The translations under genes were made by a program, and so were the position numbers. Shown in pieces: positions 3,756-9,115 of a DNA stretch of 11,094 nt (within the stretch, counting starts at the first letter, position 1; each line of letters opens with the position of its first letter). The stretch covers positions 1-11,094 of the forward strand of contig QMNM01000023.1 in the NCBI GenBank assembly GCA_003647765.1. Reading direction: 5' to 3'. The DNA comes from Candidatus Cloacimonadota bacterium. Its GTDB lineage: Bacteria > Cloacimonadota > Cloacimonadia > JGIOTU-2 > B8-G9. Below the pieces are notes generated by a model. The model was not told the origin of the DNA and searched no databases. It saw only the letters and a program-made list of their open reading frames with translations.

Positions 3756-5522
3756 TTATCTATTTTCCAAATACAAAATTGCTCTTTCCAAAGTTACATC
3801 TTTGCCTGATATTATATCCTCAATGGTTTCTTCAACTTCTATATCCGGGATAAAACCTTTACCAACAAATTCATAACCATCAGCACACCAGCATCTTCTG
3901 GCACAGATTCTTACAGAAAATTCATTATTTAATCTTATAAAAAGAGGTTGTCCTGTGCTTCCTCCTGTTGGTTTTCCGATTAAAGTAACTCTATCTGTTC
4001 CGTGTAAAGGTGCCAGAAAATCCTCTGCTGCACTAAAAGTTTTTGGACCAATTAGAACCACTATTGGTTTGTCATATATTGGAGGTCTTGGCTGCAATAC
4101 GAAATATTCACAATTTTTGAATTTTTCTAGTAATCCCTCTTTATTTGTCTCTGTTGTATCGGGAAATATCCCTTGATAAACTGAATAAAAAACATCAAAC
4201 ATTTCCTCATCTGAGAACCATTTATCAAACATATCTACGCTATAAATTCTAACTTTACTTTTAAATACCGGTAAAGGTTTATTAGAAATTCTTGTTATAA
4301 TATGAAAGCCAGTGCCCGAGCTTCCGCCACCGTTATTTCTAATATCAATAATTAACGCTTTTGTATTGAACAGCGAGTCTAAAGCTGAATCAAAAAGTGG
4401 TGTAATTTCTTCAGTTGGGTACATAGAATTTACAGCAATATAACCAATATTGTTTTCCAGTATCTTTGACTCTACATAAGGCGGTTTTTCTTTGGATTTT
4501 TCTGGAGAAGGATAAATCGTTTCTGTTAAAATTTTACCATTATGTTCATATTCTATAGTAACCGAATCACAATTATTGAAGTTAATGAATGACCTATTAT
4601 TTTCCAATCTGGATGTTATCCACTGTTCAGTTGAGCCGGAGATATATTTCTTTGTTTTCTCGATCGCATCTATAACCGGAATATTATTAATTTTAAGAAT
4701 TTTGTCACCATAAGAGATAGCATTTTTTCTATAGGATTCGTCTTTTATGAAATAGACATTATCGTCAATGATTTTTGTATAGATAAAAGAAGGCCTCCAC
4801 AAACCTTGAACATTAACTTTTGTATGACCATCCTTTAATAAGGCGAGCATTTCTGTCATAAGCCAATAAAATTCTTCATTATTTTTTGTTGCTTTCACTT
4901 TTGGTAAATACTCCATTTTCACTTTTTCCCAATCCAAATCAACCTGATCAAAAAATGCGAAGAAATCATTACAATAATGCCATACTTTGAAGAAATAGCA
5001 AAGTTTTTCATCTTCTGTTAATTGCTTGTTGAAATCAGTATTTTTACCTAAATTTTTCAAAGCATATTTGCACATATCATTCTTTTCAACATCCAGACCT
5101 TTTTGATAATACTCTTTTGCTTTATCTAAATTGTCCATCGCTTCATATACCATACCCAAACGCCAATATCCTCCCCAAAGTGACAGGTCTTGTTTATCGT
5201 CTAGATTTTCATAGTTTTGGATGAAATTGAGGAATATCTGTTCTGCCTTGTCCAATTCTTTCCCTGAAAATAAATATGCTTTACCGAGTTGATATTCATA
5301 AAAAGAGGATGGTTGTTTTTCTAAATATTTTTCCATAGCAGAAATTGCTTTGTCATAGTTTTTTTGATTAGAGAAAAACCAGAATTCATCTATCAATTTT
5401 TGCTGATTGAAATCTGATTCCTTTCCAAATAATGAGAGTGCAAAAAAGCAGAAAATGGTTATAAGAATAACTACTTTTATATGAAAATAGAACAACATTA
5501 AACTACGCGATTTATTATACAT
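3756..5522 (-). CDS. Exported TPR-containing S41 family peptidase (tricorn-like type)
   Basis: Probable serine peptidase exported across the inner membrane; its substrate is unknown. Of 588 residues, about 16-32 form one hydrophobic segment (VVILITIFCFFALSLF) behind a basic N-terminus, a signal peptide or anchor. Residues about 45-150 carry TPR-like repeats (KAYLFSGKELDKAEQIF, LGMVYEAMDNLDKAKEYY). The S41 domain covers about 170-570: DGHTKV with H233, a PDZ-like part around GDKILKINNIPV (272-283), ALIIDIRNNGGG (389-400), GPKTFSAAEDF with probable nucleophile S497, and DGYEFVGKGFIPDIEVE near the end. There is no lysine 25 residues after S497, the CtpA/Prc position, so the Ser/Lys dyad is absent. 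H233, S497 and perhaps E551 fit the tricorn-like Ser/His/Glu arrangement instead; that assignment is inference. AGGA 3 bases before the ATG supports this start. It begins 33 bases after the porV-like gene, so an operon is likely. Confidence 0.88.
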   Translation of the reverse strand: MYNKSRSLMLFYFHIKVVILITIFCFFALSLFGKESDFNQQKLIDEFWFFSNQKNYDKAISAMEKYLEKQPSSFYEYQLGKAYLFSGKELDKAEQIFLNFIQNYENLDDKQDLSLWGGYWRLGMVYEAMDNLDKAKEYYQKGLDVEKNDMCKYALKNLGKNTDFNKQLTEDEKLCYFFKVWHYCNDFFAFFDQVDLDWEKVKMEYLPKVKATKNNEEFYWLMTEMLALLKDGHTKVNVQGLWRPSFIYTKIIDDNVYFIKDESYRKNAISYGDKILKINNIPVIDAIEKTKKYISGSTEQWITSRLENNRSFINFNNCDSVTIEYEHNGKILTETIYPSPEKSKEKPPYVESKILENNIGYIAVNSMYPTEEITPLFDSALDSLFNTKALIIDIRNNGGGSSGTGFHIITRISNKPLPVFKSKVRIYSVDMFDKWFSDEEMFDVFYSVYQGIFPDTTETNKEGLLEKFKNCEYFVLQPRPPIYDKPIVVLIGPKTFSAAEDFLAPLHGTDRVTLIGKPTGGSTGQPLFIRLNNEFSVRICARRCWCADGYEFVGKGFIPDIEVEETIEDIISGKDVTLERAILYLENR

Positions 5523-6634: not shown

Positions 6635-8548
6635 CTACCAGACAAAGATTATTCCACTATTCGGTAATATCCATTCTTCTGGAGATGTTCTAATTGTAAT
6701 TCCCTTTGTTTGCTTAATCTCTTGTGGATACTTCTCTCGTCCAGCAAATATTGTTACTGTCTCAACATTGTTAATTTTTGTATCTGAAAACTCAAATTCC
6801 ACATCTATTCCTTTGGTCAATTCAACAAAATATATGGATAACTGATGCTTATTTTTGGGATAATAACTTGTGGTATCTATAGTAAAATCAACTTCTTGAT
6901 TTAATAGATTTTTTAAATCCTGGTGTGTGCATTTAATTTCCATATTACTATTTTTATATTTAGTTTCATAATGGAGAGCAATATCATTGATAGCAACTTT
7001 ATCTATTCTAAAAGCCCCTTCCAATTCAATATCTTTGTCAATTAACCAGCGATATTCTACATCAGATAATTGAAAGTATGACTCCAATTTTTTTAAACTT
7101 TTAGCACACACAATCTTAAAACTATCATTCGTTAATATTTTCTTATATTTCAATTTTGAAATAGCGAGAAAATAATCAGGCTTAAAAGAGCTATCCTTAA
7201 AAACTATCTTATGTTGAAAATTTTTCCTATATGGCAAAATTTTTTTATCACTTTTAATTGGAGCAAGAATATGTTCTAATAGTTCATTAAAAATCATATT
7301 GCCTATTTCTTCACTATTTGTTCGTTGAGTAAGTGAAGCACGGATAATTTTATTAAGTTTAGTATCTGAGAAATCTTGAGCCAAAAAGTTTCGCCGAGAT
7401 ATAGGTTCTGTTGTAATTTGCTCTTTATTTTTGATAAATACACGATGAGCGCGTCGTCCTACATTACAAAGAATTTCGTAACTTGAACCATCATATTGAG
7501 TTGCAATCTCATCTGCTCGTAATATATTGTTCTCACTTATACCTAATAAAGTTACTTCATCGCCAATCTGCACAAAAGCTAATTTCGTAACATCCACCAT
7601 TACTAAATCCATTGTTATTCTGCCCAAAATCGGACAGAATTCATTTCTGATAATTACTTTTCCCTTATTTGACAATAAAAAGTTATATCCATCAGCATAG
7701 CCAGTTGATATTACAGCAATTTTTTGCGAATGCTTTGTAATATAGGTCTGATTATAACTTATTCCGTAATTCGCTGGAAATTGCTTGATTAAATTTATTC
7801 TCGTTTTAAATGACATTACAGGCAATAGATTTATTTTCTTTTTCAGATGAGGATTTGCATAAATTCCGAAAGCAAGAAGCCCAATTCTCACTAAATCAAA
7901 TTGATACTCTGGAAAGTTGACTACTGCGGCACTATTTGCTAAATGTTTAATTTTAGGCTTTATCCCAATATGTTCTAATTGTTCCAATAGATTGATGTAT
8001 CTCTTTGCTTGAATAGTTGTGAAATTACTACTAACATCTTCGCTCATTGCAAAATGTGAGAATATCCCTTCAATTTCAAGATATGGAAGTTGACTTATCT
8101 TTTTTATATCCTCTAATGCCTTATTCCATAGAAATCCACATCGTCCCATTCCAGTATCAATGTTGATATGTATGACAACTTTTTTTTTGTGAGAATTAGC
8201 AATTCTATTTAATGCTTTTGCCTCTGAAATGGAAGATATACAGGGCATTAAATTATATTCAATTACTTCATTAAATTCACTTTTCAGGCAGGGACTTAAA
8301 ATTAGAATTGGTATATTTATGCCTTCCATACGCAATAAAATACCTTCGTCTGCATTAGCTATGCCTAAATAAGTAATTCCATTTTTTATTGCTTCTCTGG
8401 ATATTTCTATTGCACCATGACCATACGCATCAGCTTTAACTATCTGCATTAACTTTGTTTCAGGAGATAAAAATCTTTTTAGCTCTCGTAAATTTTCATT
8501 ATAATTGTCTAAATTAATCTCTGTCCAACTACGATATTCATTATTCAT
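6635..8548 (-). CDS. alr: Alanine racemase with a long unrecognised C-terminal extension
   Basis: PLP-dependent racemase that makes D-alanine for peptidoglycan; cytoplasmic. The first ~375 residues form a complete Alr. Numbering from the upstream ATG at 8560, these are the PLP lysine in VKADAYGHGA (K42), MGRCGF (R140), VRIGLLAFGIY (R225), the catalytic tyrosine in GISYNQTY (Y269), TGYADGY (284-292 area) and GRITMDLVMVDVT (M317), ending at NVGRRAHRVF. I prefer the ATG at 8548 because GGA lies 7 bases before it, while the upstream ATG has no such signal; this gives 637 residues. Typical Alr ends near 370-390, so about 260 residues (380-641) are extra: a helical part (DTKLNKIIRASLTQRTNSEE), a lysine-rich middle, and a probable beta-rich end with YRWLIDKDIELEGAF and a final WILPNSGIIFVW. 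I do not recognise this part. The reading frame is continuous, so it is a fusion or lineage-specific extension, not a frameshift. The gene has its own upstream gap and candidate promoter. Confidence 0.93.
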   Translation of the reverse strand: MNNEYRSWTEINLDNYNENLRELKRFLSPETKLMQIVKADAYGHGAIEISREAIKNGITYLGIANADEGILLRMEGINIPILILSPCLKSEFNEVIEYNLMPCISSISEAKALNRIANSHKKKVVIHINIDTGMGRCGFLWNKALEDIKKISQLPYLEIEGIFSHFAMSEDVSSNFTTIQAKRYINLLEQLEHIGIKPKIKHLANSAAVVNFPEYQFDLVRIGLLAFGIYANPHLKKKINLLPVMSFKTRINLIKQFPANYGISYNQTYITKHSQKIAVISTGYADGYNFLLSNKGKVIIRNEFCPILGRITMDLVMVDVTKLAFVQIGDEVTLLGISENNILRADEIATQYDGSSYEILCNVGRRAHRVFIKNKEQITTEPISRRNFLAQDFSDTKLNKIIRASLTQRTNSEEIGNMIFNELLEHILAPIKSDKKILPYRKNFQHKIVFKDSSFKPDYFLAISKLKYKKILTNDSFKIVCAKSLKKLESYFQLSDVEYRWLIDKDIELEGAFRIDKVAINDIALHYETKYKNSNMEIKCTHQDLKNLLNQEVDFTIDTTSYYPKNKHQLSIYFVELTKGIDVEFEFSDTKINNVETVTIFAGREKYPQEIKQTKGITIRTSPEEWILPNSGIIFVW

Positions 8549-8573
8549 ATAGCATTCCATACAATATTTTACT

Positions 8574-8601
8574 TTTATATTTTTGCTAAAAATATATACA
8601 A
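8574..8601 (-). promoter_or_regulatory. Candidate sigma-70 promoter for alr
   Basis: On the minus strand TTGTAT (8601-8596) and TATAAA (8579-8574) are separated by 16 bases. Transcription would begin near 8567, leaving an untranslated leader of roughly 20 bases before the preferred alr ATG at 8548, with the GGA at 8558-8556 inside it. The surrounding sequence is very AT-rich, so chance matches are likely and this is a tentative call. Confidence 0.3.
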
Positions 8602-8630
8602 ATATTTGCGAATTTTTATCCTGATATATG

Positions 8631-8670
8631 CAGACGCAAACTAATACAAACTAAGCGAACTTACGCGAAT
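8631..8670. repeat. Degenerate 10-base periodic repeat
   Basis: Four consecutive 10-base units line up: CAGACGCAAA, CTAATACAAA, CTAAGCGAAC and TTACGCGAAT. The shared core is roughly A-C/G-GCGAA at the same phase in each unit, eroded in the second. A related piece, TTGCGAATTTTTATCC, lies just to the left at 8606-8620, and the last unit is followed by ACTTTTATCC, so the larger block GCGAAT...TTTTATCC also appears twice. Confidence 0.45.
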
Positions 8671-8720
8671 ACTTTTATCCTTTTGGAAAAAATAATAATA
8701 AATCCACTATAAAAACCGTT

Positions 8721-8785
8721 CACCACGTTAGACCCTTAGGTTGAGACACTGTTTTTCTGTTAAAATTTTAATTATCTAACTGGTG
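8721..8785. repeat. Long-loop inverted repeat
   Basis: CACCACGTTAG at 8721-8731 pairs with CTAACTGGTG at 8776-8785, giving 10 base pairs with a single bulged C (8726). The loop of 44 bases is AT-rich in its right half. On the minus strand the stem is followed by AACGGTTTTTAT, so it could help termination, though the loop is long for an intrinsic terminator. Confidence 0.4.
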
Positions 8786-8829
8786 TAAAAATAAACTCGA
8801 CTCGGGTTCTTTGAACTCGAGTCGGGTTT
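8783..8829 (-). terminator. Strong terminator-like hairpin downstream of the MnhD-like gene
   Basis: Positions 8793-8809 and 8813-8829 form a 17-pair stem with only two G-T pairs and a 3-base loop, by far the strongest hairpin in the window. On the minus strand it is followed by TTTATTTTTA, as expected of an intrinsic terminator for transcripts coming from the mnh genes; on the plus strand no T-run follows. It stands about 290 bases after the MnhD-like stop, which is far for a simple terminator. The two arms are also near-identical direct copies (see findings), so an operator or repeat element is the alternative. Confidence 0.55.
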
Positions 8830-8850
8830 CACGGTATATCGTCTGAAAAT

Positions 8851-8927
8851 GGTTAGTCCTGTATAAGTAGTGGCATTTTGAGATGCTTTATTGATAAATC
8901 ATTCACCACTACTTTTGGGGGACTACC
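8851..8927. repeat. Nested hairpin structure
   Basis: An outer stem pairs GGTTAGTCC (8851-8859) with GGACTACC (8920-8927), leaving one bulged base. An inner perfect 9-base stem pairs AAGTAGTGG (8865-8873) with CCACTACTT (8906-8914). Inside it, ATGCTTTA and TAAATCAT around TTGA form a third imperfect stem. No T-tract suitable for termination follows on either strand. The layered pairing is more than expected by chance and suggests a folded RNA or a palindromic repeat element. Confidence 0.45.
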
Positions 8928-8946
8928 TACAATTTTAGTTGTAGGT
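8925..8946. repeat. 8-base-pair hairpin overlapping the nested structure
   Basis: ACCTACAA (8925-8932) and TTGTAGGT (8939-8946) are perfect inverted copies around a 6-base loop. On the plus strand the stem runs into TTTTAG, a weak terminator-like end. Its left arm shares ACC at 8925-8927 with the outer stem of the neighbouring nested hairpin, so the two cannot both form completely. Confidence 0.4.
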
Positions 8947-9040
8947 TTTAGAAAGGATAGCACACACTACTTCGTCAAAACCTTATAGGGCACACTGAAA
9001 AACGCTGACCAAAGACACCGACACTGATAAAAAGTTAAAA

Positions 9041-9087
9041 TTACTCCGTGTCCTTAAATCTTACTCTGTGTTCTCTGTATCTCTGTG
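9041..9087. repeat. Degenerate CTCTGTG-type tandem repeat
   Basis: TTACTCCGTGTCCTTAAATC (9041-9060) is followed at once by TTACTCTGTGTTCTCTGTAT (9061-9080), two related 20-base units, and CTCTGTG recurs again at 9081-9087. The stretch begins 29 bases beyond the MnhD-like stop. CTCTGTG/CACGGA-rich intergenic repeats are, from memory, common in environmental bacterial genomes, but I cannot confirm copies elsewhere from this window. Confidence 0.5.
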
Positions 9088-9115
9088 GCAATATAGTTAG
9101 TTCGCGATTAAATCC

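Follow-up and report, generated by a model that had tools for sequence, protein, structure and literature searches.

The window, which is the whole stretch of 11,094 nucleotides analysed from a Candidatus Cloacimonadota bacterium, contains on its reverse strand an open reading frame in which an alanine racemase (Alr) is continued by a long C-terminal tail (Table 1). On one side of alr, the segment 5556-6524 gave a weak UPF0164 match and probably encodes an outer-membrane beta barrel; it adjoins an S41-family peptidase (3756-5522) that carries TPR repeats at its N-terminus and also a tricorn C1 segment. On the other side, 555 bases without an annotated gene (8561-9115) separate alr from antiporter-like genes; this stretch contains an imperfect inverted repeat (8854-8925) and had no match in Rfam.

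Table 1. Parts of the Alr-tail fusion, with positions in the window.
Feature	Position	Strand	Remarks
Alr-tail fusion ORF	6635-8560	-	641 aa, ATG start, stop-free frame
Alanine racemase N-terminal PLP barrel domain	7859..8518	-	aa 15-234, PF01168 (Ala_racemase_N), E 2.6e-61
Alanine racemase C-terminal domain	7439..7819	-	aa 248-374, PF00842 (Ala_racemase_C), E 4.6e-40
Linker	7367..7438	-	aa 375-398, motif P386, R389, R390, F392, D396
Two-helix hairpin	7253..7366	-	aa 399-436, AlphaFold2 helices 399-414 and 417-436
All-beta C-terminal domain	6638..7243	-	aa 440-641, M1 aminopeptidase N-terminal 'saddle' fold predicted

Alanine racemase, a textbook enzyme of the cell wall and a drug target, makes D-alanine and is usually a stand-alone protein of two domains. 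With TIGR00492, the NCBIfam model of alanine racemase, the frame scored 342.8 bits, well past the curated equivalog cut-off of 168. The PLP lysine K42 and the catalytic tyrosine Y269, aligned with PDB entry 4luy, were invariant among 76 homologues. As far as can be judged from sequence, the racemase moiety is a complete alanine racemase with its set of active-site residues intact. The solved alanine racemases in the PDB are at most about 417 aa long and their matches stop by query residue 385. A preliminary description of this DNA had reported an unrecognised C-terminal extension, and indeed about 265 residues were found in frame beyond the complete Alr, which in Pfam reaches aa 374. The start that it gave for the tail, nt 7420 (aa 381), is near the end of Alr but lies slightly within it, since the tail-less Alr L190 keeps P..RR.F, which equals window aa 386-392. 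Because this sister of the fused enzymes also ends with P..RR.F, the motif is probably part of the C-terminal end of Alr itself. L190, which was found in genome G011 (6% contamination) and has the C-terminal end '...EPKLRRIFIPGE', is possibly close to the pre-fusion ancestor, or a contaminant.

The structure was predicted with AlphaFold2 as a monomer from an alignment of 76-78 homologues (mean pLDDT 85-87). The earlier view of the tail as helical and then beta-rich agrees with this model, in which some 15 strands, spanning aa 444-640, come after the two helices. It had also been regarded as a single domain of about 260 residues; it is a C-terminal extension, but one made up of three parts, namely linker, helix hairpin and a beta domain whose fold can be recognised. 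The lysine-rich character ascribed to the helical section reflects this AT-rich genome more than the family, as many relatives in the alignment lack it. In the beta domain pLDDT was mostly above 90, and at aa 386-401 of the linker region it was below 50.

Searched alone, the tail had no match in Pfam at E<=1 and none in NCBIfam at E<=5. As a single sequence or as an alignment it retrieved scattered matches at chance level from Pfam, NCBIfam, PADLOC and PHROGs, and a sequence-profile search of the PDB brought up ribosomal protein S2 (E 0.016) and Lmo0067 (E 0.075), which were judged to be chance. In agreement with the preliminary description, the tail is not MurF and is unnamed in any library used; a clear match to a domain previously reported as a fusion partner of Alr was sought without success. 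In the literature searched, alanine racemase and Cloacimonadota names never appeared in one paper, and the fusion was likewise absent. With this tail, which no curated model covers, a well-known enzyme has a new domain architecture.

When the model was compared with known structures, the best Foldseek matches were leukotriene A4 hydrolase and other M1 aminopeptidases (best E 2.6e-5). VIA-align 2 gave Z values of 10-12 across model residues ~70-271, which is the entire beta domain; its matches were 3kd4 (which we take to be a DUF3857-type protein), 4g2a, OST1/ribophorin I, the TFIID subunit TAF2 and many M1 N-terminal domains, all nearly tied. This suggests that the beta domain, as modelled, resembles the 'saddle'-type fold of the M1 aminopeptidase N-terminal domain. 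In a profile-profile comparison M1_N ranked first of 27 profiles with the 'V.VN' strand region aligned, at a probability of 3.7% and with a score equalled by 1 of 60 column shuffles. For PF17900, the M1 N-terminal domain, the tails of the window protein and of 25 relatives did not reach the Pfam gathering score and gave no match at E<=1; for DUF3857 (PF12969) there was no Pfam match at E<=1 and the profile-profile probability was 0.3%. Homology of the beta domain with M1_N is plausible, the sequence profiles falling short of proof.

The tail contains no HExxH motif and no M1 catalytic domain, the protein ending with the beta domain. The frame has no peptidase domain and the fused protein is therefore not an M1 enzyme. 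This bears on the idea that the tail is a second catalytic unit of a bifunctional enzyme, which would be favoured by the Cys, His, Glu and Asp residues that are conserved in 95-100% of 78 sequences. However, the domain matched best in fold is one that is not catalytic in peptidases and, besides the lack of HExxH and of a subsequent catalytic domain, no enzyme family was matched, so that this reading is very unlikely. Of the functions offered in the preliminary description, namely regulation of the racemase, tethering to a partner and a second activity, the last found no positive support.

The distribution of the tail was determined at several levels. A profile search of the Cloacimonadota covered 124 genomes and detected the tail in 100 (among the 70 of good quality, in 64), which means that it is conserved essentially across one phylum; a separate search found it in 82 of 98 related genomes. 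A lack of conservation between close relatives was looked for and not found. Most genomes without the tail also had no Alr_C match, which is what assembly gaps would produce; in a few the only Alr was a distant short one. A peptide-pattern scan of 84,980 species genomes, the sole search of phyla beyond Cloacimonadota and Neomarinimicrobiota and one that distant relatives would escape, yielded 77 loci. By title these are Cloacimonadota, except six Neomarinimicrobiota or Marinimicrobia and one Armatimonadota. Spread to the latter phylum was rejected, the locus (L058) having the same coordinates as G113, a Cloacimonadota genome, which makes it a matter of naming. Viral contigs gave 48 pattern matches, of which 0 were confirmed, and a search of plasmids for the tail found none. 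At 77 of 77 loci the tail was fused in frame to Alr, and at none did it stand alone. An accidental origin (read-through, frameshift, assembly artefact or unselected extension) is refuted by this fusion in one frame at every locus, by a length and C-terminus that are the same across Cloacimonadota, and by a dN/dS far below 1.

In close pairs dN/dS ranged from 0.03 to 0.10 for the tail and from 0.06 to 0.14 for the Alr part, and in each of the 12 pairs the tail had the lower value. The tail is at least as strongly constrained by purifying selection as the racemase part. The pairwise distances of the two parts were related with r 0.87. Together, the phylum-wide conservation, the constant fusion, the low dN/dS and this joint change imply that the tail is a functional part of the protein. 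A maximum-likelihood tree built from the Alr part groups the fused enzymes in one clade (support 99/99), whose sole members without a full tail, L188 and L189, are both cut by contig ends. The fused copies of Neomarinimicrobiota (L091, L097, L099, L101, L102, L103, L195 and L196) nest in the Cloacimonadota clade at two separate places. In that phylum the tail was present in 8 of 245 genomes, and an Alr_C match of any kind was rare among those sampled. One of the copies is located 0.92 Mb inside its contig, a position that speaks against contamination. On the simplest reading, the entire fused gene was apparently transferred laterally into Neomarinimicrobiota twice.

The fused protein was the sole Alr_C match in about 70 genomes, including G018, which is a single contig and 99% complete, and D-Ala-D-Ala ligase was found in 36 of 40 relatives. 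Most likely, the fused enzyme is the housekeeping (biosynthetic) racemase of the Cloacimonadota, racemisation itself being a prediction. A second, tail-less Alr occurs in nearly 30 Cloacimonadota genomes. In the tree the short Alr proteins of about 390 aa (L171-L187, n=17, some of them from genomes in which no fused gene was found) make up a very distant clade with a branch of 2.5. They carry the C-terminal signature NYELL.RLP..IPR, and this paralogue may act on another substrate. Upstream of alr, a gene for a PIN/PhoH-like ATPase in the same orientation was present at 52 of the 77 loci (L031-L107), the window not being among them. It was the only recurrent neighbour at these loci; cell-wall synthesis genes did not recur, and no partner was indicated.

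The linker motif (Table 1) is kept in 77-78 of 78 sequences, and in the hairpin I406, R413, E418 and L428 are conserved in the same alignment. Such conserved helices and linker beside the C-terminal end of Alr, which is active as a dimer, would fit a purely structural tail that, through its hairpin and beta domain, stabilises the dimer or assembles a higher oligomer, with neither outside partner nor regulation. This is unlikely, as ordinary Alr manage without such a tail and as it would by itself leave unexplained the polar residues that are invariant in the beta domain of the 78 sequences, namely K474, C485, E502, Y503, R504, D508, Q573 and S635. Most of these (K474, C485, E502, R504, D508 and Q573), together with the near-invariant C544, H546 and H572, would suit a ligand-sensing allosteric domain, where a small molecule or peptide, e.g. 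an amino acid or a cell-wall precursor, changes racemase activity. The N-terminal domain of M1 peptidases borders the substrate site, which would be in line with this, but no known ligand of the saddle fold outside peptidases was found, and we consider a ligand sensor rather unlikely.

Computation established the fusion, its phylum-wide conservation, the intact set of active-site residues of the racemase, the strong purifying selection that acts on the tail, and the fold as predicted. As to function, we infer, with a probability of about 0.45, that the tail is a tethered docking or regulatory module on the housekeeping racemase of the Cloacimonadota. Alr is permanently joined to an accessory module of linker, two-helix hairpin and beta domain of predicted saddle fold, and this module would itself be non-catalytic. 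The conserved linker motif and the polar residues of the beta domain would bind a partner, which might be an enzyme that uses D-alanine, another cell-wall enzyme or the second subunit of the Alr dimer, and this binding would place the racemase or tune its activity. In known proteins of the saddle fold, the domain forms a lid or a scaffold next to their other domains. Among the readings considered, the docking or regulatory module ranks first, followed by a purely structural role, a ligand sensor and a second enzyme, because the two parts evolve jointly, the linker motif is conserved although disordered in the monomer model, and the beta domain has its polar invariants. It is also supported by the movement of the fused gene between phyla as a unit. 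Against it stand the gene neighbours, which point to no partner, the many invariant polar residues, which would fit ligand binding or catalysis as well, and the orientation of the two parts, which the model does not settle (pTM 0.64).

An extra conserved domain on the often sole Alr of a whole phylum suggests that the supply of D-alanine is organised or controlled differently there, and the tail gives a defined piece for experiment. The saddle fold would gain a use outside peptidases and eukaryotic complexes. A bolder and improbable idea is that the D-alanine supply of Cloacimonadota is directly controlled by a domain that is specific to the phylum, uses this fold and senses a partner or a ligand; if true, control of the drug target Alr by a sensing domain would be a form of control absent from the searched literature.

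Of the known systems, the M1 N-terminal saddle (PF17900; LTA4H, ERAP1, PepN) is alike in predicted fold, with Z ~10 and an rmsd of 3.1-3.6 over ~150 residues. It is, however, N-terminal on a peptidase, whereas the window domain is C-terminal on a racemase and is not accompanied by the M1 catalytic domain. OST1/ribophorin I, TAF2 and the DUF3857-type 3kd4 reach Z 10-12 over the same range and are tied with M1, but these are different proteins with other cell locations, and DUF3857 has no sequence match to the tail. The biosynthetic Alr (TIGR00492, PDB 4luy) has both Alr domains, the PLP lysine and the catalytic tyrosine in common with the window protein, which is about 260 residues longer than the solved enzymes that end near query residue 385. 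The models of other Alr fusions fell below their cut-offs: MurF-Alr (NF008897) scored 337 against 804 bits, with only profile positions 460-821 (the Alr part) matched, VanT NF033131 scored 336.8 against 460 bits in the Alr part only, and VanT NF033132, which includes an N-terminal membrane domain, scored 217.9 against 900 bits, the Alr domain of the window protein beginning at aa 15. In MurF-Alr and VanT an Alr is likewise fused to another domain, but there the extra part, MurF or a membrane domain, is N-terminal, whereas in the window protein it is C-terminal.
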